Assembly (NCBI RefSeq): GCF_000830885.1
Contig: NZ_CP006951.1
Location: forward strand, 930,001-994,000
Direction: 5' to 3'
Length of the DNA stretch: 64,000 nt
Source: Dehalococcoides mccartyi CG5
GTDB taxonomy: Bacteria; Chloroflexota; Dehalococcoidia; Dehalococcoidales; Dehalococcoidaceae
Both the position numbers and the translations under genes were made by a program. Within the stretch, counting starts at the first letter, position 1; each line of letters opens with the position of its first letter. The notes beneath the pieces were generated by a model, which saw only the letters and a program-made list of their open reading frames with translations, did no database searches and was not told where the DNA came from. Below, one piece after another: positions 40,929 to 56,757 of this stretch.

Positions 40929-41117
40929 TTAGGCAGTTTTAGCAAGCTTGGCCTGAGTGCGGATACAACGGGTGCACAGTTTCATGCGAACTTCAGTGCC
41001 ATTAACGGCAATCTTGGCGGAATGAATATTGGGCATCCACATCCGGTTAGTGCGCCTCTTGGAATGGCTTACATTATGCCCAAACGAAGGGGTCTTGCCA
41101 CACATTTCACATTTCAT
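40929..41117 (-). CDS. rpmB: ribosomal protein bL28
   Basis: L28 (62 aa) of the zinc-binding C+ form: C-x2-C in MKCEMCGK and C-x2-C in LCTRCIRTQ. The conserved middle is HSKRRTNRMWMPNI. The nearest ribosome-site-like sequence (AGGAG) is 16 bases before the ATG, unusually far. A minus-strand promoter lies at 41178-41206. It is convergent with argH. Confidence 0.95.
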   Translation of the reverse strand: MKCEMCGKTPSFGHNVSHSKRRTNRMWMPNIHSAKIAVNGTEVRMKLCTRCIRTQAKLAKTA

Positions 41118-41177
41118 AGTTTTAAAAGATTTACTCCTTTGACTGAACCACTAAATTCATATAAAATCCGACTAGTA

Positions 41178-41245: not shown

Positions 41246-42880
41246 ATGACACAGAACGGAAACATCAGCGGTGCCCAATTTAGAGATATGGTGGCAGCTG
41301 CTACAAACTGGCTGGAAAAAAGCTCCCAAGATATTGACGCTTTAAACGTATTTCCTGTTCCTGACGGGGATACCGGTACAAATATGTTACTAACCATGCG
41401 CTCTGCAGTAGAAGAAACCTACAAATACCACGAGCCGGACGTCTCAACCGTAGCCTTGGCCATAGCCAAGGGTTCTTTAATGGGCGCCCGCGGCAACAGC
41501 GGCGTCATACTCTCCCAGATATGGCGGGGTGTTTCCATTGCCCTGAAGGATAAGACGGCTATATGCGCATCTGACTGGGCGGTAGCCATGAAACAGGCCT
41601 CGGAGACCGCTTATCAGGGGCTGAATAATCCGGTGGAAGGCACTATCCTGACCGTACTCAGAGACGTAGCCACTGCCAGCCAGCAAGAGGTTGAAAGCGG
41701 TATTACCAGCGTAAGTGAGCTGGTGGAAAAAGGCATGACCGCAGCCGGTGAATCCGTGGCCAATACCCCCAGCCTGCTCCCTGCCCTGCGTGAAGCCGGG
41801 GTGGTAGACGCCGGCGGACAGGGTTTTTATACTATTCTGGAGGGTTCACTCCATTTCCTGCGGGGTGAGATTGAGGACATGCAGTTCCGCAAATCCCGGG
41901 TTATTACCGGCAATATCCCCACCGGCAACCTGTCCGGACAATACGTAGTAGATGATGAAGAAGCCTTTGGCTATTGTACCGAGTTTTTGCTCAAGGGCGA
42001 AAATATGGATATTGACAAGATACGCGAACGCTTAAAGAAAAAAGGCGTCTCGCTTATAGTTGTCGGTGACCCCACTACTGTGAGGGTACATATACATACC
42101 CTGAAACCCGGCAGTGTTATGAACTATGTGGGCGAGCTGGGTACCATGCACAAGGTCAGCGTACGCAATATGGACGAACAGCACGAAGACTTTTTAGCCC
42201 TGCAAAAAGAACGCATGCCTTCGGTGGATACCGCCATTGTGGCCGTGGTAGCCGGAGACGGGCTGAAAGAAGTTTTCAAAAGTCTGGGTGCCCAGAGCAT
42301 TATTTCCGGCGGGCAGACCATGAACCCGTCCACCAAGGATATACTACAAGCAGTGGAAGCCGCCCCTTCGGACAAGGTAATAATACTGCCTAACAATAAG
42401 AATATTATCCTGACTGCTATTCAGGTGGAAAACCTGACCAAGAAAAAGATAAAGGTCATTCCCAGCATCACCATACCCCAGGGCGTGGCAGCTTTGCTGG
42501 CTTTTGACTATGAAGCAGATTTTGATACCAACTTCAACCTGATGAAAGATGCCAAAGAGAGCGTTAAAACTATAGAGATAACCAGAGCTGTCCGTTCTAC
42601 CAAACTGAACGGTCTCAATATAAAGAAAAAACAGGCTATCGGCCTGCTGGATGATGAGCTTTGTGCCGTAGGTGATGAACCCAAAGCTGTTCTTGATGAA
42701 ATAATATCCAAACTGGATCTTTCCAAGTCAGAGGTCATAACCGTCTATTACGGGGCGGATACTACCGAAGAAGAAGCCAAAATACTGGAGACAGAACTTA
42801 TAGAAAAGCACCCCTCACTTCAGGTTGAAATGGTGAATGGGGGACAGCCTCATTATAACTACACCGTTTCTATTGAATAG
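41246..42880 (+). CDS. fakA: fatty acid kinase ATP-binding subunit (DAK2-fold, YloV/FakA type)
   Basis: A 544-aa protein with an N-terminal DhaL-type kinase domain (residues 1-200) followed by the FakA middle and C-terminal domains. The metal and ATP site is ALNVFPVPDGDTGTNMLLTM; GARGNSGVILSQIWRG and AGGQGFYTILEG complete the nucleotide pocket. FakA phosphorylates fatty acids held by a FakB (DegV) protein, giving acyl-phosphate for phospholipid synthesis. Four degV genes follow at once, the first 9 bases downstream, so the group is an operon for a full kinase with several acyl-binding partners. Confidence 0.9.
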   Translation: MTQNGNISGAQFRDMVAAATNWLEKSSQDIDALNVFPVPDGDTGTNMLLTMRSAVEETYKYHEPDVSTVALAIAKGSLMGARGNSGVILSQIWRGVSIALKDKTAICASDWAVAMKQASETAYQGLNNPVEGTILTVLRDVATASQQEVESGITSVSELVEKGMTAAGESVANTPSLLPALREAGVVDAGGQGFYTILEGSLHFLRGEIEDMQFRKSRVITGNIPTGNLSGQYVVDDEEAFGYCTEFLLKGENMDIDKIRERLKKKGVSLIVVGDPTTVRVHIHTLKPGSVMNYVGELGTMHKVSVRNMDEQHEDFLALQKERMPSVDTAIVAVVAGDGLKEVFKSLGAQSIISGGQTMNPSTKDILQAVEAAPSDKVIILPNNKNIILTAIQVENLTKKKIKVIPSITIPQGVAALLAFDYEADFDTNFNLMKDAKESVKTIEITRAVRSTKLNGLNIKKKQAIGLLDDELCAVGDEPKAVLDEIISKLDLSKSEVITVYYGADTTEEEAKILETELIEKHPSLQVEMVNGGQPHYNYTVSIE

Positions 42881-42889
42881 AAGGAAAAT

Positions 42890-43729
42890 ATGACGGTCAA
42901 AATAGTAACCGACAGCACTTCGGATATAAGCCAGAAGCTGGCCGCTGAACTGGGCATAACCGTAGTACCATTGACGGTTTCGTTTGGCAATGAACACTTT
43001 AAAGATGGTGTCAGCATAACACCTGAACAGTTTTTTACCCGCCTTACTTCCCAAAATATATATCCCACTACTACCCAACCCTCACCGGGATTATTTTTGG
43101 AAACTTTTGAGAAGTTGTGTGAAGAAACAGATGAGATACTGGTTATTACCGTTTCCTCAAAACTGTCAGGTACCCTTTCATCCGCTAAAAATGCCGCTGC
43201 CATTATACATGGCCGCTGCCAAGTGGAAGTGATAGATTCCCAAAGGGTTATCATGGGGACAGGGCTACTGGCTATATATGCCGCCGAACTGGCAAAAACC
43301 GGCCTTAACCTCAAGGAACTTAGCCAAGCCATCAGCCAAAAACTGGATGACTGCCACCCCATCATGTACTTTGATACCCTAACCTACCTGCACAAGGGCG
43401 GACGGATGGGCAAAGCCCAAAGTCTGGTGGGCACCATGCTTTCCATAAAACCCATTCTGAAGATGGAAGACGGCATTATCTGCCCGCTTTCCAAAGTGCG
43501 TTCCCGCAGAGCCGGCATGGACTACCTTTATAAGTTTATCAACTCTTACCCGAAGATAAAATACCTGGCGGTAGAACATGCCACCAGCCCGGAAGATGCC
43601 GATGAACTGGTGGAGAGACTGGGGAATATACTCCCGAAAGAACAAATCTTCAGGTCAAGAATTGGACCGGTTGTGGGTACTTATACAGGGGCAAATGCGG
43701 TAGCTGTCACCGTTCTGGAAGACAAATAA
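42890..43729 (+). CDS. DegV/FakB family fatty-acid-binding protein 1
   Basis: A 279-aa DegV protein. TDSTSDIS is the family N-terminus; SSKLSGT and FDTLTYLHKGGRMGKAQ contain residues that contact the fatty-acid carboxylate or FakA in FakB structures. The late motif, normally GTHxGPG, reads GTYTGAN, so the conserved His is Tyr. It is the first of four tandem paralogues; 1 to 3 share the segment SFGNEHF and are clearly closer to one another than to 4. It presents bound acyl chains to FakA. Confidence 0.88.
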   Translation: MTVKIVTDSTSDISQKLAAELGITVVPLTVSFGNEHFKDGVSITPEQFFTRLTSQNIYPTTTQPSPGLFLETFEKLCEETDEILVITVSSKLSGTLSSAKNAAAIIHGRCQVEVIDSQRVIMGTGLLAIYAAELAKTGLNLKELSQAISQKLDDCHPIMYFDTLTYLHKGGRMGKAQSLVGTMLSIKPILKMEDGIICPLSKVRSRRAGMDYLYKFINSYPKIKYLAVEHATSPEDADELVERLGNILPKEQIFRSRIGPVVGTYTGANAVAVTVLEDK

Positions 43730-43745
43730 TATTAAGGAGCTGAAT

Positions 43746-44588
43746 ATGGCAGTGAAAATAATAACCGACAGTACTTCTGATATTCCGCCCGAAATGGCTA
43801 AAAATATGGGGATTACGGTAATTCCCCTGACTGTATCTTTTGGAAATGAACACTTTCTGGATAATGTAACCCTTAAGCCTGATGAATTTTACCGCCGTCT
43901 TTCACTAAGCGGCATTTATCCCCATACCACTCAACCGTCACCGGCTGTCTTTAAAGAAAACTATGAAAAACTTATGCCACAGGCTGATGGCATACTGGTT
44001 ATTAACATATCATCTAAACTTTCCGGCACCTACCAGTCTGCTTTAAGTGCCGTAACCATGCTGGAAAACATAAGCTGTCCTATAGAAATAATAGATTCAC
44101 AGACAGTCAGCCTGGCACTGGGGTTACTGGCTATAAAAGCCAATGATTTGGCCAAAAGCGGGAAAACCTTGGGAGAGATAAAAGAAGCCATCACCCAAAG
44201 CCTGCCTGATGCCCAGCCGGTTATGTTTTTTGATACCCTGACCTACCTGCACAAAGGCGGCAGGATTGGCCGCGCCCAAAGCATGATTGGTTCACTCCTT
44301 TCAGTAAAACCCTTACTTACAGTACGTGACGGGGTGGTTACCCCTTTGACCAGAGTACGCTCACTGCAAGCCGGCATGGACCAGCTTTACAACTTTGCCG
44401 CCCAACACAGTACCCTTGAATATGTAGGTATCGGTTATGCCACCTCTACCACTGATGCCTTAAAACTAAAGGAGCGCCTTGCCCCCTTGTTCCCGCCGGA
44501 AAAAATATACCTAACCCAGGTAGGACCGGTAGTAGGCACATATACAGGGCCGAATACCCTGTGTATAAACATAATCGGGAAAAGCTGA
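43746..44588 (+). CDS. DegV/FakB family fatty-acid-binding protein 2
   Basis: A 280-aa DegV protein beginning MAVKIITDSTSDIPPEMAKN, with SSKLSGTYQSA, FDTLTYLHKGGRIGRAQ and SFGNEHF. The late motif is GTYTGPN, again with Tyr at the usual His position. AAGGAG stands before the ATG, 16 bases after copy 1. The differences from copies 1 and 3 in the lining residues would be expected to change acyl-chain preference, which is an inference. Confidence 0.88.
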   Translation: MAVKIITDSTSDIPPEMAKNMGITVIPLTVSFGNEHFLDNVTLKPDEFYRRLSLSGIYPHTTQPSPAVFKENYEKLMPQADGILVINISSKLSGTYQSALSAVTMLENISCPIEIIDSQTVSLALGLLAIKANDLAKSGKTLGEIKEAITQSLPDAQPVMFFDTLTYLHKGGRIGRAQSMIGSLLSVKPLLTVRDGVVTPLTRVRSLQAGMDQLYNFAAQHSTLEYVGIGYATSTTDALKLKERLAPLFPPEKIYLTQVGPVVGTYTGPNTLCINIIGKS

Positions 44589-44612
44589 TAACAGGATTTT
44601 GGAGGCTTTAAT

Positions 44613-45458
44613 TTGAATGTCCAGATTGTAATTGACAGCACCTCTGATATTACACCCCAGATGGCCAAAGCCATGGGTAATGTACATATAATGCCGCTCA
44701 CAGTGTCCTTCGGAAACGAACACTTTCAAGACGGCATAGATATAACCCCGGAAGAATTTTATACCCGCCTGCCGCAAGACGAGAATATCCCTACCACTAC
44801 CCAACCCCTTCCCGGATATGTAATAGAATTGGTGACCCGCCTTTCCGAAGAAACCGACCAGATACTTATCCTTACCCTTTCCCAAAAACTCAGCGGCACT
44901 TACCAGTCTGCACTTTATACCAAAAAAACTCTGGAAAGCCCCACCTGCCGCATAGAGGTATTTGATACCAACCTGACTACGCTGGGGCACGGACTTAGGG
45001 CTATAAGGGCATCGGATATGGCCAAAGAAGGGGCAAATCTGGACCAGATACTGGAAGAACTTCGAAAGCCCCATAACTATTTGGCAGGGGTTATGTACTT
45101 TGATACTTTAAAATATCTGGCCAGAGGCGGACGGATTGGCAAAGCCCAAAGTTTGCTGGGAGCAATGCTTTCGTTCAAGCCCATTATCACCGTTCAGGAC
45201 GGAGAGGTCAGCCCTGTAACCAGAGTGCGTTCGCGTCAGGCAGGCATGGATTATCTTTATAACTATGCCGCCAGCCGCAAAAATATCCGCTATCTGGGGG
45301 TTGAGCATGCCAATACACCTGAAGACGCCGAGGCTTTAATAGAACGTTTGGGGAATATTTTCCCCAAGGAAAAGATAATCCGTTCACGGATAGGCCCGGT
45401 AATCGGGACATCTATCGGCCCTAACGCTGTATGCGTGGTAGCTTGGGCAGACGCCTAA
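44613..45458 (+). CDS. DegV/FakB family fatty-acid-binding protein 3
   Basis: A 281-aa DegV protein, start TTG with TTGGAGG upstream. It has VIDSTSDITPQ, SFGNEHF, SQKLSGTYQSA and FDTLKYLARGGRIGKAQ. The late motif is GTSIGPN, with Ser at the usual His position. Third of the four tandem copies. Confidence 0.88.
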   Translation: MNVQIVIDSTSDITPQMAKAMGNVHIMPLTVSFGNEHFQDGIDITPEEFYTRLPQDENIPTTTQPLPGYVIELVTRLSEETDQILILTLSQKLSGTYQSALYTKKTLESPTCRIEVFDTNLTTLGHGLRAIRASDMAKEGANLDQILEELRKPHNYLAGVMYFDTLKYLARGGRIGKAQSLLGAMLSFKPIITVQDGEVSPVTRVRSRQAGMDYLYNYAASRKNIRYLGVEHANTPEDAEALIERLGNIFPKEKIIRSRIGPVIGTSIGPNAVCVVAWADA

Positions 45459-45487
45459 TAAAATAACTTGATCAGAGGTACGGATAT

Positions 45488-46420
45488 TTGAGCGTAAAAA
45501 TAGTTACCGACAGCACCGTGGATTTACTTCCGGAAACTATAAAAGAACTGGGCATAACAATAGTACCGGTATACGTAATGTCCGGCAATAAAACCTACCG
45601 GGACGGGCTGGATATAACCCAAACCGAAATTTACAACCGTATGCTGACGGGTGAGCAGTTCACCACTTCCCAGCCCACTCCGGCTGACTTTGCCAGCGTT
45701 TACAAAAACCTTTCAAAAGAAACCGACCAGATAGTTTCCCTTATTATGAGCGCCAAACTATCTGGCACCTATAATTCGGCGGTGCAGGGGCGTGAACTGG
45801 CAAAAAGCAGCAGCAATATAGAACTGATAGATACCAAGGCTACATCCGGGGCTTTGGGCTTGCTGGCTACACAGGCAGCCGAAATGGCAAAAATGGGTGA
45901 AAGCGCGGGGAAGATAATTGATACTGTCAGGAATAATATCCCTCACGTACACATATGGGCACTACTGGATACCGTTAAGTACGTACTAAGAAGCGGGCGT
46001 CTCAGCAGTGCATCCAACCTTATCAGCGGGGTTTTAAGTATTCGCCCCATGATTACCCTCAGGGAAGGCTCTCTCTGGCCTGCCAGTATTCACCGCACCC
46101 GTAATAAGGGACTGGAGAAACTGGCCGAACTGGTAAAAACCAACCGTAACGTGGAGGCAGTTCAGATAGTCCAAAGTGTAGACCTGGCGGAAGCCCAAAC
46201 CCTGAAAGAAAAACTGGCTGACTTTATAGACCAGAGTAAAATCCATGTCTCACAGCTTGGACCTGCTTTGGGTGTTCACGGCGGACCCGGCACGCTGGTA
46301 GTGGCTATTAAGGAAAAACTGGGCAATATCGGCACTGCTACTGATGAAACTGAAGATAGAAAGTCATTTAAGCTGCCTTCCATCCACCTGCCCAAGCTGG
46401 GTTTTTCCAGCCTGCATTAG
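45488..46420 (+). CDS. DegV/FakB family fatty-acid-binding protein 4
   Basis: A 310-aa DegV protein, the most divergent of the four. TDSTVDLLPE, SAKLSGTYNSA and LDTVKYVLRSGRLSSAS are present. Its late motif GVHGGPGTL keeps the canonical His that copies 1-3 have lost. It also has a C-terminal extension of about 30 residues (ATDETEDRKSFKLPS onward) absent from the others. The TTG start and the following strong terminator make it the last gene of the operon. Confidence 0.88.
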   Translation: MSVKIVTDSTVDLLPETIKELGITIVPVYVMSGNKTYRDGLDITQTEIYNRMLTGEQFTTSQPTPADFASVYKNLSKETDQIVSLIMSAKLSGTYNSAVQGRELAKSSSNIELIDTKATSGALGLLATQAAEMAKMGESAGKIIDTVRNNIPHVHIWALLDTVKYVLRSGRLSSASNLISGVLSIRPMITLREGSLWPASIHRTRNKGLEKLAELVKTNRNVEAVQIVQSVDLAEAQTLKEKLADFIDQSKIHVSQLGPALGVHGGPGTLVVAIKEKLGNIGTATDETEDRKSFKLPSIHLPKLGFSSLH

Positions 46421-46443: not shown

Positions 46444-46472
46444 AAGCCCTCCACTTAAAAGGAGGGCTTTTT
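46444..46472 (+). terminator. terminator of the fakA-degV operon
   Basis: AAGCCCTCC and GGAGGGCTT form a perfect 9-bp stem with an 8-base loop, then TTT. Confidence 0.93.
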
Positions 46473-46546
46473 ACAATCTGGAATAGTGTGGACAAGTGCA
46501 GGTATATGGTCTATCATTTTTAAAAAACGACAGGCGGAGTATAAAT

Positions 46547-49003
46547 TTGGGAGTAGATACCGGCGCCTTTAAAAAAATACTTCAACTGGAAGCTCAAAAA
46601 GGTTTTGCCGATACCGCCGTTATGGGCGGGCTGGACCACTTTCTGTCCCACTGGGCGAAAGAAGCGGTAACCGGCATAAATAACCCGGATGACCTGCTTG
46701 ATTTTCACCACCTGAAACTATCTGACCCCAACTATGCCAAAATGACTGAAGACAAACGCAGGGAATGGGTGGATGCGATACTGGCATTTCTGCCCAAACT
46801 GGAAAACCAGCCCATCGGTAGACCTGCACCCCAAAAAGCACCTAAAGCCAAGTCTCCTTCCAAAACACCTGCCAAACCCAAAGCAGACACCCGCCTGCCA
46901 GCCCTTGACGGGGACGTCTCTCTGGTAAAGGGTATCAGTGCCGCTACCGCCCCCAAATTTCACAAATTGGGTGTTAACACTGTACGTGATTTGCTTTACT
47001 ATTTTCCAAACCGCCATCTGGATTACAGCCGTTTGAAAAAGATATCCCAGCTGGAAGCAGGACCGGAACAGACCATAATCGCCAATGTCTGGCAGTCCAA
47101 AGTGAATTTCATGGGCGGACGCCGCTCAACCGAAGCGGTACTGGGAGATGATACCGGCAACATGCGGGCGGTCTGGTTTAACAACCCGTATATGGTACGT
47201 AATTTGAAACCAAATGCCAGAGTAGTCCTTTCGGGACGGGTCTCTATATTTCAGGGCAGGCCTGTATTTGAATCTCCAGAGTGGGAAGAACTACCAGACG
47301 AAGCTGACCTTATCCATACCGGACGTTTAGTACCTGTCTACCCCCTGACTGCCGGGCTTCACCAGCGAAGCCTGCGCCGCCTGATGAAAAACTTTATAGA
47401 CATTTCTTCCCCAAATATTTCAGATTTTATGCCTGCTGAAACCCTGAAACGCACCCGCTTGCTGCCACTTTCAGAAGCTATCCGACAGGCCCATTTCCCT
47501 GATGATGAAGAATTGAAAAATGCCGCCCGAAACAGGCTGGCTTTTGATGAACTGTTTATCCTCCAGTTGGGAGTACTGGCCAAGAAAAAACGCTGGCACG
47601 AACAGGCAGGACGGGCTTTAAACGTAAATATTCCGGATATAGACCGTTTTGTGTCTAAACTGCCATTTAAACTGACTGATGCTCAGACAAAGTGTCTGGC
47701 TGATATAAAAGCCGATATTTCCAAAGGCGTGCCCATGTCCCGCCTGCTTCAAGGTGAAGTGGGTTCGGGAAAGACTATAGTGGCGGTTATTTCCCTGTTT
47801 ACCGCCGCCGCTAACGGGCTTCAGGGAGCTTTTATGGCACCTACCGAAATACTGGCCGAACAGCATTTTAAAAGTGTCACCCGTCTTTTTGCCTCCATTG
47901 CCCGTGTAAGTACCCTTCTTGACGGGATATATACCTTTGAAGGTCTGCTTGACCGCCCGCTTAAGGTAGCTTTACTTATAAGCGATATGAAGGGCAGCCA
48001 GAAAGATATTTTAAAAGAAAAGATTAAAAAGGGTGAAGTTGATATAGCCATTGGCACCCATGCCCTTATCCAGAAAGAAATCCGCTTCAAATCACTGGGG
48101 CTGGCTGTTATAGATGAACAGCACCGCTTCGGGGTGGAACAACGCTCTGCCCTGCGGAGTAAAGGCCTAAATCCCCATATACTTATTATGACCGCCACTC
48201 CTATACCCCGCACTCTGGCTCTGACCCTGTACGGAGACCTTGACCTTTCAGTTATAGACGAACTGCCACCCGGACGCCAAAGCATAAAAACCCGCTGGTT
48301 AAAACCGGAACAGCGGAACAGCGCTTATACCTTTATCCGCAAACAGATTCAGGAGGGACGGCAAGCATTTATAATCTGTCCGCTGGTAGAGGAATCCGAA
48401 GTTATCCAAGCCAAAGCCGCCACCGCCGAATACGAAACCCTGTCTAGAGAGGTATTCCCCGAATCCAGAGTAGCCCTGCTGCACGGACGCATGAATGCCT
48501 CTGAAAAAGAGACCATAATGAGACACTTTAGCGAAGGCGAAATGGACATACTGGTTTCCACTCCGGTGATAGAGGTGGGGATAGACATACCAAACGCCGC
48601 TGTAATGCTGGTGGAAAGTGCCGACCGCTTTGGCCTTTCCCAGCTACATCAGTTCCGGGGACGGGTGGGCAGAGGCACTGAGCAGAGCTACTGCATGTTT
48701 CTGGCCGAAAATCCGTCTCTACTGGGGCAGGAACGTTTGTCCATTATAGAAAGCACCCAGGATGGCTTTAAGCTGGCTGAGGAAGACCTGCGGCTACGCG
48801 GGCCGGGTGAATTTTTTGGCACCCGCCAGAGCGGCCTGCCAAAGCTGCGTATGGCCAGCATATCTGACGTGGGGCTGCTGGAACAGGCACGCAAAGAGGC
48901 CACCCGTCTTTTTGAGTTAGACCCGGAGCTTAGCTTGCCCGAAAACGCCCCTCTGGAAGCAGAGGTAAGGCGTGTCTGGCCTAAAAAGAGCGAATGGAGC
49001 TAA
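46547..49003 (+). CDS. recG: ATP-dependent DNA helicase RecG
   Basis: RecG (818 aa) remodels stalled forks and branched DNA. An N-terminal region of about 100 residues and a basic, Pro/Ala/Lys-rich linker (QKAPKAKSPSKTPAKPK) precede the wedge OB domain (residues 150-260). The helicase motifs are LQGEVGSGKTIVAVI (Walker A), VIDEQHRFGVEQR (DEQH), TATPIPRTLALTLYGD and HQFRGRVGRGTEQSY. The TRG motif region is near the end. I use TTG 46547 with GGCGGAG 7 bases before it; the open frame reaches GTG 46496, which has no ribosome site. Confidence 0.94.
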   Translation: MGVDTGAFKKILQLEAQKGFADTAVMGGLDHFLSHWAKEAVTGINNPDDLLDFHHLKLSDPNYAKMTEDKRREWVDAILAFLPKLENQPIGRPAPQKAPKAKSPSKTPAKPKADTRLPALDGDVSLVKGISAATAPKFHKLGVNTVRDLLYYFPNRHLDYSRLKKISQLEAGPEQTIIANVWQSKVNFMGGRRSTEAVLGDDTGNMRAVWFNNPYMVRNLKPNARVVLSGRVSIFQGRPVFESPEWEELPDEADLIHTGRLVPVYPLTAGLHQRSLRRLMKNFIDISSPNISDFMPAETLKRTRLLPLSEAIRQAHFPDDEELKNAARNRLAFDELFILQLGVLAKKKRWHEQAGRALNVNIPDIDRFVSKLPFKLTDAQTKCLADIKADISKGVPMSRLLQGEVGSGKTIVAVISLFTAAANGLQGAFMAPTEILAEQHFKSVTRLFASIARVSTLLDGIYTFEGLLDRPLKVALLISDMKGSQKDILKEKIKKGEVDIAIGTHALIQKEIRFKSLGLAVIDEQHRFGVEQRSALRSKGLNPHILIMTATPIPRTLALTLYGDLDLSVIDELPPGRQSIKTRWLKPEQRNSAYTFIRKQIQEGRQAFIICPLVEESEVIQAKAATAEYETLSREVFPESRVALLHGRMNASEKETIMRHFSEGEMDILVSTPVIEVGIDIPNAAVMLVESADRFGLSQLHQFRGRVGRGTEQSYCMFLAENPSLLGQERLSIIESTQDGFKLAEEDLRLRGPGEFFGTRQSGLPKLRMASISDVGLLEQARKEATRLFELDPELSLPENAPLEAEVRRVWPKKSEWS

Positions 49004-52523: not shown

Positions 52524-53363
52524 ATGACTCAAACGTCTTACGGGTTGCTCAAGGGTAAAAAGGGAATTATATTCGGCCCTCTAAATGAGCAAAGTCTGGG
52601 CTGGAAAATAGCCTTGGCCTGCTACCGCGAAGGAGCTGAGTTGGCTATTTCCAATGTGGCCACCGCACTTAAGATGGGCAATACCACCGACCTGGCCCGG
52701 ATTTGCGGTCAAGCCCCCCTGCTGGTAGCTGATGCCACCAGTGACGATGAGCTTAAAGCCTTGTTTTCCGAACTGAAAACCACGCTGGGAGAAATAGATT
52801 TTATAGTCCATTCGGTGGGCATGAGTGCCAATATCCGAAAGAAAATCCCTTACGAATCAACCAATTATATTTTTTATAACAAAGGGCTTGAAATTTCGGC
52901 CATATCCCTCCACAAAATAATCCGATATGCCCTTGAGGCAGGAGTACTCAAAGACAACGGCAGTATACTGGCTCTGACATATATTGGGGCGCAAAGGGTT
53001 TTTTCCCAGTACAACGATATGAATGATGCCAAAGCCCTGCTGGAAGCAATTGCCCGAAATTTCGGTTCCCGTCTGGCAGACCGCGGCATACGAGTAAACA
53101 CTGTTTCCCAGTCACCTACCCGCACTTCGGCCGGTTCAGGGATAAGCAACTTTGACGCCATGTACGAATATGCCAATCTGCTTGCCCCCCTAGGAAATGC
53201 AAACGGCGAGGAATGTGCGGATTATGTGATTACCCTGCTTTCAGACCTTAGCCGCAAGGTAACCATGCAAAACCTTTACCATGACGGCGGCTTCTCCAGT
53301 GCAGGCATCTCCGAAAAACTGCTCAAGCTGCTGGAACGTAACCAGCCTGAAGCCGGTGTATAA
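52524..53363 (+). CDS. fabI: FabI-type enoyl-ACP reductase
   Basis: SDR-fold enoyl-[acyl-carrier-protein] reductase (279 aa). The cofactor loop GPLNEQSLGWKIALACY matches the FabI pattern (long insert between Gly residues) rather than FabG. The active site reads TYIGAQRV and QYNDMNDAK, i.e. Tyr then six residues then Lys, and ADRGIRVNTVSQSPTRT follows the SDR core. ACGGAGAG precedes the ATG. It reduces trans-2-enoyl-ACP to acyl-ACP with NAD(P)H. The fab genes that follow (from 53.7 kb) have their own promoter. Confidence 0.86.
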   Translation: MTQTSYGLLKGKKGIIFGPLNEQSLGWKIALACYREGAELAISNVATALKMGNTTDLARICGQAPLLVADATSDDELKALFSELKTTLGEIDFIVHSVGMSANIRKKIPYESTNYIFYNKGLEISAISLHKIIRYALEAGVLKDNGSILALTYIGAQRVFSQYNDMNDAKALLEAIARNFGSRLADRGIRVNTVSQSPTRTSAGSGISNFDAMYEYANLLAPLGNANGEECADYVITLLSDLSRKVTMQNLYHDGGFSSAGISEKLLKLLERNQPEAGV

Positions 53364-54364: not shown

Positions 54365-55297
54365 ATGACTGAGATTAAAACAGCTTATGTCTTCCCCGGT
54401 CAGGGTGCTCAGTTCGTGGGCATGGGACGGGATTTATACTCGGAGTTTCATTCCGCCAGAGAGCTTTTTGACCTGGCGGATAAAGCTTTGGGGTTTTCGT
54501 TGTCTAAATTATGTTTTGAAGGACCTGAAGAAGACCTGAAGGACACCCGCCACTCCCAGAGTGCCATTGTCTGCCACAGCCTGTCTGCCCTTTCGGCTTT
54601 TATAGAAAGCGGCAAATCAAAGCTTCTGCCTGAACCCTCTTTTGTAGCAGGGCATTCACTGGGTGAATATTCGGCGCTGGGTGCAAGCGGAATACTCCCT
54701 TACGTACAAGCTATTTTGCTTGCCCGCAAACGGGGAGAACTCATGGCTGAAGCAGCCGCCAAAACCCCCGGTGCCATGGCCGCCGTTATAGGCATATCCC
54801 AAGAAATACTGTCTGATATCTGCCTGAAAACAGGCTGTTACATAGCTAATTTCAATTCTCCCGGGCAGCTGGTTATCAGCGGTCTGAAAGAGGCTGTAGA
54901 CCAAGCATCTGCCCAAGCCACAGCCAGCGGAGCTATGAAAGTAGTAACCCTGCAGGTAAGCGGCGGTTTCCATACCCCTCTCATGTCGCCTGCTTCCACA
55001 GGTTTAAAAGAAATGCTGAACTCTATGGATTTTAAGACCGCCCGAATACCGCTGGTGGCCAATACCAGTGCTTGCCCAGTTTCTACCCCGCAGGATGTAA
55101 AAGCCGAACTTTATTGCCAACTGACCGGTGGTGTCCAGTGGCAAAAAAGCATAGAGAATATGATTGCAAGCGGGGTAAATACCTTTGTTGAGATTGGGCC
55201 GGGTAAAGTACTGGCCGGACTGATAAAAAGAATTAACCGCAGTGTCAGTATCTACAATATAAATGATGCCGCTTCTATCCAGAATTTTAGCGTATAA
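54365..55297 (+). CDS. fabD: malonyl-CoA:ACP transacylase
   Basis: FabD (310 aa) loads malonyl groups onto ACP. N-terminal VFPGQGAQFVGMG and the nucleophile elbow VAGHSLGEYSALG (Ser at about residue 97), then the active-site His in GGFHTPLM, are all present. Its stop overlaps the start of fabG by one base (TAATG). Confidence 0.95.
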   Translation: MTEIKTAYVFPGQGAQFVGMGRDLYSEFHSARELFDLADKALGFSLSKLCFEGPEEDLKDTRHSQSAIVCHSLSALSAFIESGKSKLLPEPSFVAGHSLGEYSALGASGILPYVQAILLARKRGELMAEAAAKTPGAMAAVIGISQEILSDICLKTGCYIANFNSPGQLVISGLKEAVDQASAQATASGAMKVVTLQVSGGFHTPLMSPASTGLKEMLNSMDFKTARIPLVANTSACPVSTPQDVKAELYCQLTGGVQWQKSIENMIASGVNTFVEIGPGKVLAGLIKRINRSVSIYNINDAASIQNFSV

Positions 55298-56049
55298 TGG
55301 GTAACATGCTTGGTTTAAATGGCAAAGTAGCCCTGATTACCGGCTCCGGCAGGGGCATAGGCAAAGCCATAGCTTTGCGGTTCGCCGAAGCAGGGGCAAA
55401 AGTGGTAGTAAACAGTCTGTCTCCCAATGGTGAAGAAACGGCCTCTCAGATACGTTCTCAGGACGGACAGGCCATATTCGTTCAGGCTGATGTAAGCCAA
55501 AGTAGCGGGGTAGAAGCCCTTTTCAAAGCCAGTCAGGAAGCCTTTGGCGGAGTGGATATACTGGTAAACAATGCCGGCATAACCCGTGACCAGTTGACCA
55601 TGCGTCTGTCCGAAGAAGACTGGGACAGTGTAATACAAACCAACTTAAAGAGTGTTTTTTTGTGTTCCAAGGCCGCCCTCCGCCAGATGCTGAAAAACCG
55701 CTGGGGACGGATAATAAACCTCAGTTCCATAGTCGGTCTGAAGGGCAACCCGGGGCAGGCCAATTATGCCGCCGCCAAAGCCGGCATTCTGGGATTCAGC
55801 TATTCTTTGGCTAAAGAAGTGGCCAGCCGCAATATTACTGTCAATTCCATAGCACCCGGTTTTATAGAAACCGATATGACCGCAGCCCTGTCTGACGAAC
55901 AAAGACAGGCTATAACAGCCCGAATACCCATGCAAAAACTTGGCACAGTGGAAGATATAGCCGCCTGTGCATTATACTTGGCACAAGAAGATGCCAAATA
56001 CATTACCGGACAGGTAATTTGCCTGGACGGCGGTATGTCTATAATATAA
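55297..56049 (+). CDS. fabG: 3-oxoacyl-ACP reductase
   Basis: SDR-fold FabG (250 aa), NADPH-dependent. GSGRGIGKAIALRFA binds the cofactor and NNAGITRD follows. The catalytic set is the Ser in NLSSIVGLKG and Tyr and Lys in QANYAAAKAGILG. The C-terminal ITGQVICLDGGMSI is standard. It shares one base with fabD. The start MGNMLGLNGK has a second Met (55306) as an alternative start. Confidence 0.95.
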   Translation: MGNMLGLNGKVALITGSGRGIGKAIALRFAEAGAKVVVNSLSPNGEETASQIRSQDGQAIFVQADVSQSSGVEALFKASQEAFGGVDILVNNAGITRDQLTMRLSEEDWDSVIQTNLKSVFLCSKAALRQMLKNRWGRIINLSSIVGLKGNPGQANYAAAKAGILGFSYSLAKEVASRNITVNSIAPGFIETDMTAALSDEQRQAITARIPMQKLGTVEDIAACALYLAQEDAKYITGQVICLDGGMSII

Positions 56050-56496: not shown

Positions 56497-56757
56497 GTGG
56501 CAACGGTTTTTGAAAGAGTAAAAAAAGTTAGTGTTGAGCAGTTGGGCGCCGAAGAAAAAGATGTGGTGCTTACTGCCAGTTTTGCAGATGACCTGGGGGC
56601 AGATTCTCTGGATCAGGTAGAACTTATAATGGCACTGGAGACCGAATTCGGTACTCCCGAAACCAAGTTTGAGATACCTGATACTGACGCTGAAAAATTA
56701 AAGACGGTGCAGGCTGTAGTGGACTACTTGAAGTCCAAAGGCATAAAAGACAGCTAA
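56497..56757 (+). CDS. acpP: acyl carrier protein
   Basis: ACP (86 aa), the acyl carrier for fatty-acid synthesis. The phosphopantetheine Ser is Ser37 in [13 protein letters not shown]. The protein is acidic with four helices as usual, but it has a slightly longer N-terminus. Start GTG 56497, with GGGAGGAG upstream inside the end of nusB. It ends the operon that also carries fabD and fabG. Confidence 0.96.

Follow-up and report, generated by a model that had tools for sequence, protein, structure and literature searches.

Directly behind a fatty acid kinase gene, the window (the whole stretch of 64,000 nucleotides of Dehalococcoides mccartyi CG5 DNA that was analyzed) carries four genes for FakB-type carriers. 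With a probability of roughly 0.7, we consider these genes to be a FakA-FakB fatty acid kinase operon in which Tyr, and probably Ser, takes the place of a conserved His in three of the four carriers, the copies being kept likely for different acyl chains or sources. The analysis shows homology, fold, retained residues, evolutionary history and selection, whereas fatty-acid binding, catalysis and acyl preference are inferred. Overall, the kinase system is of the ordinary kind, with a copy number that was expanded in this lineage. As far as could be searched, the recurrent Tyr at a FakB-defining residue, the triplication and the LPS...PKL tail of copy 4 are unreported; the literature search found no study of the Fak system in Chloroflexota, no biochemical data for any Chloroflexota FakB and nothing on DegV or Fak in Dehalococcoides.

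The fakA-fakB operon and its products

The fakA gene and the four degV/fakB genes lie on the plus strand, separated by gaps of 9, 16, 24, and 29 bases (Table 1). The group is closed by a hairpin with a 9-bp stem and a T-run (−19.6 kcal/mol over the stretch; z = −3.3 relative to shuffled sequences), and recG comes next. Coordinates, profiles and hairpin thus agree with the original prediction, which had placed a FakA-type kinase and four DegV paralogs in one operon ending at a strong terminator. Upstream of fakA, an rpmB-like (L28) gene, recognized by sequence reading only, occupies positions 40940–41120 of the minus strand and points away. Together with recG downstream, it resembles the rpmB-fakA-recG neighborhood of Bacillota. 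A search of the window for RNA elements and tRNAs returned none. The host genome is a single contig of 1.36 Mb.

Table 1. Coordinates of the operon, of its downstream neighbor and of genes for acyl supply and use (window positions unless indicated otherwise).
Feature	Position	Strand	Basis
fakA, ATP- and FakB-binding protein of the fatty acid kinase (Dak2, middle, C-terminal domains)	41246..42880	+	Pfam FakA-like_C 3e-76, Dak2 4e-40, FakA-like_M 6e-25
fakB copy 1, Tyr-type (Y265 at the site of FakB1 His270)	42890..43729	+	PF02645 1e-80; alignment; AlphaFold model
fakB copy 2, Tyr-type (Y266)	43746..44588	+	PF02645 8e-79; alignment
fakB copy 3, Ser at the His270 site (S267)	44613..45458	+	PF02645 4e-76; alignment; AlphaFold model
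fakB copy 4, His-type (H264), separate clade, conserved C-terminal tail	45488..46420	+	PF02645 6e-70
Copy 4 C-terminal tail: variable linker, then basic LPS-x-x-LPKLxF motif	46313..46417	+	conserved in orthologs
Intrinsic terminator, AAGCCCTCC-loop-GGAGGGCTT then T-run	46444..46472	+	
recG, downstream neighbor	46496..49003	+	ORF; RecG assigned by sequence reading
FabI-like reductase	52524-53363		profile match
FabD	54365-55297		profile match
FabG	55297-56049		profile match
ACP-like ORF	56497-56757		sequence reading
PlsY genes, intact and defective (host genome, G000:C1)	1087340, 769512, 1336456, 10846, 1134584, 503660		

The kinase scores 639 bits against TIGR03599 (YloV), and its Dak2, middle and FakA C-terminal domains are all above cut-off; the cut-off of the narrower NF038248 FakA_VfrB equivalog is missed (475 of 975 bits). 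FakA can be aligned over its full length with the S. suis protein from the FakA-FakB2 complex (7w7h), and in this alignment it keeps the PVPDGDTGTNM, GYCTE and VHxH motifs, with the Asp/Asn/Thr residues of the nucleotide site and the Cys-His-His metal site, whose residues have known roles (PMC9136124, PMC11617999). It is encoded by the only Dak2 gene of the genome, compared with seven DegV genes, namely the four of the operon and three elsewhere, the distant ones all having His. Between species of the genus, dN/dS of fakA is 0.03–0.05.

The four carriers score 236–271 bits against Pfam DegV (PF02645, cut-off 27) and are also well above the NCBIfam cut-off (TIGR00762), while reaching 126–175 of the 350 bits required for the NF038249 FakB1 equivalog. 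By profile, they are members of the family and not orthologs of FakB1. The AlphaFold models of copy 1 (pLDDT 94.9; top PDB match the fatty-acid-bound DegV 2dt8, TM 0.91) and copy 3 (pLDDT 90.5) both adopt the DegV fold, and these ligand-free models match fatty-acid-bound DegV/FakB structures with a TM of ~0.9. The S. aureus protein FakB1 holds the acid by means of a Ser171-His270-Thr62-carboxylate-Ser95 network; catalysis requires Arg173, and contact with FakA and the membrane is made by Arg205 (PMC8892158, PMC9136124). Aligned with FakB1, all four copies have both carboxylate ligands, Thr62 and Ser95, together with Arg173 and Arg205, and since all these residues are kept, all four look like working FakBs. 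Profile, fold and four of the five key residues put copies 1–3 in the FakB/DegV family; the fifth, His, is absent, which leaves them outside the textbook definition of a FakB. As for site 171, it is Gly in copies 1–3 and Ser in copy 4, Gly being usual across the whole sample, His rows included. Pseudogenes or relaxed copies were ruled out by a dN/dS of 0.05–0.10 per copy between species of the genus (for copy 2, 0.06–0.08 versus two other species) and by intact frames in three species.

Copy 4 has, besides its His, ~30 extra C-terminal residues. More than 32 residues follow the GPG motif in 25 of the 39 distinct copy-4-type sequences, and the tail consists of a linker, a basic stretch and then LPS-x-x-x-PKL. 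This pattern is found in 16 copy-4-type rows, as against none of the other DegV ORFs that were examined; the genome has a single instance of it, and the sister-genus orthologs are without it. A membrane- or FakA-binding role of the tail would be a guess.

Residue 270 and the history of the array

In the alignment with FakB1, site 270 is Tyr in copies 1 and 2, Ser in copy 3 and His in copy 4. The Tyr, Tyr and Ser stand column for column with His270 of FakB1 and with the His found in DegV of B. subtilis, in the T. thermophilus protein and in the other solved DegVs that were aligned. Several independent pairwise and multiple alignments agree on this, ruling out a misaligned His. Thus the predicted substitutions at a homologous position were confirmed, as were the His and the C-terminal extension of copy 4. 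Among 265 homologs, site 270 is occupied by His in 178, Tyr in 67, Ser in 3 and other residues in 17, so His is not universal. A 2016 study of FakB2 (Broussard et al.) is reported to count this His among five family-defining residues, and the H266A substitution in FakB2 reportedly costs ~1000-fold activity. From this loss, a residue other than His at site 270 could mean low kinase activity, which counts against our reading of the operon.

To place the four copies, DegV proteins from 40 relatives (named as Dehalococcoidia and Dehalococcoidales), ~50 fakA neighborhoods across the phylum and 80 further loci were sampled. The usual array in Dehalococcoidales is fakA followed by one Tyr-type FakB (with the motif TTQP, not TSQP) and often then by one His-type FakB that bears a C-terminal tail. 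Exactly this order of fakA, Tyr-type and His-type gene is found at 23 loci, the Tyr-type gene alone at 19 (some cut by contig ends) and its ortholog carrying His instead at 8, while among the loci sampled the four-gene Y-Y-S-H array is confined to the three genomes of this genus. Phylogenetic analysis of the DegV copies (265 sequences), which had been proposed as a check, assigns copies 1–3 to one clade and copy 4 to another. Within the clade of the Tyr-type gene, copies 1–3 group together with an SH-aLRT support of 97–98%, as the original prediction had it, and each has one ortholog in two other species of the genus; one Tyr-type gene therefore became three before the species split. The SFGNEHF motif common to these copies is indeed present, as a feature specific to the genus, relatives of the same gene having mostly SFGxESF. 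Ser is confined to copy 3, and its codon (S267) is TCT in all three species. Taken together, the phylogeny indicates that copies 1–3 are one old Tyr-type gene triplicated in the Dehalococcoides lineage, with one later Tyr-to-Ser change in copy 3. Tyr is not a special mark of the duplicated copies, as single-copy orthologs have it as well.

Other arrays were also encountered. Another Dehalococcoidales genome has a separate array of four DegV genes behind fakA (L229:3255-6682), all four with His. In the wider Chloroflexota, a DegV lacking some or all of Arg173, Thr62 and His270 lies directly behind fakA in several families (L140, L148, L172, L181, L183, L132, L188), followed in some loci by a more normal DegV, for instance in L132/L163 and L188. 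These degenerate proteins may be non-catalytic partners of FakA.

On a tree of the 265 sequences built with column 270 left out (a quick build with SH-aLRT support only and many weak forks), the His/Tyr state must have changed 20 times or more, with at least 10 changes inside the 67-row clade of the Tyr-type gene and 9 among the remaining rows; on supported branches only, the minimum number of Tyr gains and losses is 13. The Tyr-type clade comprises 53 Tyr, 11 His and 3 Ser; Arg173, Arg205 and Gly171 are invariant in it, and site 62 is Thr in 62 rows and Ser in 5. Some close ortholog pairs differ at site 270 (for instance, L210 has Tyr and L211 has His), and Tyr occurs also in the copy 4 orthologs L219 and L224. 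A small sample of other phyla, drawn from plasmid-collection records, adds two Tyr-bearing DegVs of the clostridium Acetoanaerobium (L277, L281). The change from CAY to TAY takes one base. A coupling scan of all columns over independent pairs gave only weak leads, such as Thr at site 269, in at most ~5 of 12 pairs and uncorrected for the many columns, so a coupling of Tyr to other columns is not claimed. Given so many exchanges, half of the minimum of 20 among the orthologs of this gene, Tyr is a common and repeatedly exchanged alternative to His, probably near-equivalent rather than a loss of function, and by itself it probably does not imply a non-standard ligand. The simplest reading of the interchange would be that His can be replaced by the hydroxyl of Tyr.

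Proposed function and competing explanations

Each carrier would bury one fatty acid, whose carboxylate would be bound by Thr62, Ser95 and residue 270, and would dock on FakA via Arg205; with the help of Arg173, FakA would then phosphorylate the acid to acyl-phosphate, to be used directly as PlsY substrate or moved to ACP by PlsX. Tyr, and probably also Ser in copy 3, would replace His as the hydrogen-bonding partner in the carboxylate network. The Dehalococcoides lineage triplicated the Tyr-type gene, with all copies held under purifying selection, and the copies would most likely persist through a preference for different acyl chains or sources, that is, uptake or recycling.

The window holds the de novo fab genes that had been noticed before, and the presence of FabI-like, FabD, FabG and ACP genes indicates that the cell makes its own fatty acids. 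The Fak system may accordingly serve recycling as well as uptake, as was proposed for E. faecalis Fak (PMC12594616). The acyl-phosphate has users, since the genome contains one PlsX gene and four intact PlsY genes, besides one PlsY gene with two in-frame stops and one PlsY fragment; several PlsY genes are the rule in Dehalococcoidales (1 to 8, mostly 3 to 6). At four other loci, plsY lies between two degV genes (G030:C60:462-2901, L068; G031:C24:11319-13780, L073; G023:C23:4932-7379, L094; G013:C232:66-3169, L057), of which one carries Ala or Thr at the position of His270 (GYACGTG and variants) and the other His. These loci, which come from four families of the order, represent a possible FakB-PlsY cassette.

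It is tentatively conceivable that site 270 and changes in the pocket suit particular acyl chains or non-fatty-acid ligands. Copies 1–3 are only 49–53% identical to one another, yet each is conserved between species, and tunnel positions 121/158 are Val/Pro in copies 1 and 2, Thr/Gly in copy 3 and Thr/Ile in copy 4; mutation of these positions in FakB1 widened its selectivity (PMC8892158). However, these sites vary freely across the family, and the His/Tyr difference is not tied to duplication, single-copy Tyr-type genes being the rule in the order. The original prediction had proposed an expanded scavenging system in which the paralogs hold different acyl chains or non-standard ligands. Of this, the FakAB operon and the expanded FakB set are supported, and paralog-specific acyl chains are plausible. 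On the other hand, the loss of His as a pointer to non-standard ligands is not supported: Tyr is the common state of this ortholog in Dehalococcoidales, exchanged repeatedly within the clade and beyond it, and there is little or no change at Thr62, Ser95, Arg173 and Arg205. The claim of non-standard ligands had the missing His as its sole ground.

Alternatively, the Tyr and Ser copies could be fatty-acid buffers or recyclers that bind acyl chains but are poor FakA substrates, in which case phosphorylation would fall to copy 4 and to the three His-type DegVs encoded elsewhere. Residue 270 belongs to the carboxylate network (PMC8892158), acyl-chain binding that does not supply phospholipids was proposed for S. 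pyogenes FakB4 (PMC10138225), and in the wider Chloroflexota the neighbor of fakA is often a degenerate DegV, with Arg173 and other residues lost, so this slot can tolerate non-catalytic members. We regard the explanation as unlikely, however, because copies 1–3 keep Arg173 for phosphorylation and Arg205 for FakA docking, as do 67 of 67 orthologs, and because His and Tyr are swapped between close orthologs without any other consistent change. Highly doubtful is a further view, according to which the Tyr/Ser FakBs are a sub-lineage with altered head-group chemistry, either for particular acyl chains of Dehalococcoidia membranes or for acyl carriage unrelated to the kinase, the Ser-bearing copy 3 being the most specialized member. 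Least probable of all is plain gene-dosage redundancy by tandem amplification without functional difference, which would suit the tandem arrangement and the all-His array of L229, but copies 1–3, at ~50% identity, are older than the three species of the genus, and each copy is under purifying selection with copy-specific fixed residues.

The repeated His/Tyr exchange in a conserved group of kinase-linked orthologs, at a residue treated as FakB-defining, amounts to a natural mutagenesis series. It allows a direct test of whether the chemistry requires His or whether hydrogen bonding is all that His contributes. Furthermore, genomes of the Dehalococcoides type, although streamlined, retain seven FakB-type carriers and four intact PlsY enzymes next to one FakA and one PlsX, which hints at acyl-chain sorting.

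Comparison with known Fak systems

Several FakBs per FakA are well known in Bacillota (two in S. aureus, three in S. pneumoniae and four in E. faecalis; PMC12594616), and the expansion described here is therefore a variant of a known pattern. The S. aureus FakA-FakB1/FakB2 system likewise has a single three-domain FakA, DegV-fold carriers with Thr62, Ser95, Arg173 and Arg205, and both PlsX and PlsY. It differs in having two FakBs, both with His, whereas here four are linked and three lie elsewhere, three of the linked ones being of the Tyr or Ser type; in addition, Ser171 of FakB1, which is hydrogen-bonded to His270, corresponds to Gly in copies 1–3. S. pyogenes FakB4 is also an extra DegV/FakB, and its job is not uptake-linked phospholipid synthesis (PMC10138225), which makes it a model for the buffering role. 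The example suggests that supplying phospholipid synthesis is not a necessary task of a DegV, and it counts against our main explanation. FakB4 is regulated together with FASII by FabT, for which there is no evidence here.

As regards gene order, a Paenibacillus locus (L282, annotated DAK2-DegV-recG) also has a DegV between fakA and recG, but only one, with His. In Fusobacterium vincentii (NZ_CP084075.1, L291, ~291574-293383), one open frame of 854 residues contains a DegV domain and matches FakA as well, so that it is likely a FakA-FakB fusion. In E. faecalis, one FakA serves four FakBs with overlapping acyl preferences (PMC12594616), as might be the case here; unlike the operon described here, it does not have a tandem array of the Chloroflexota type that arose by triplication of one gene.
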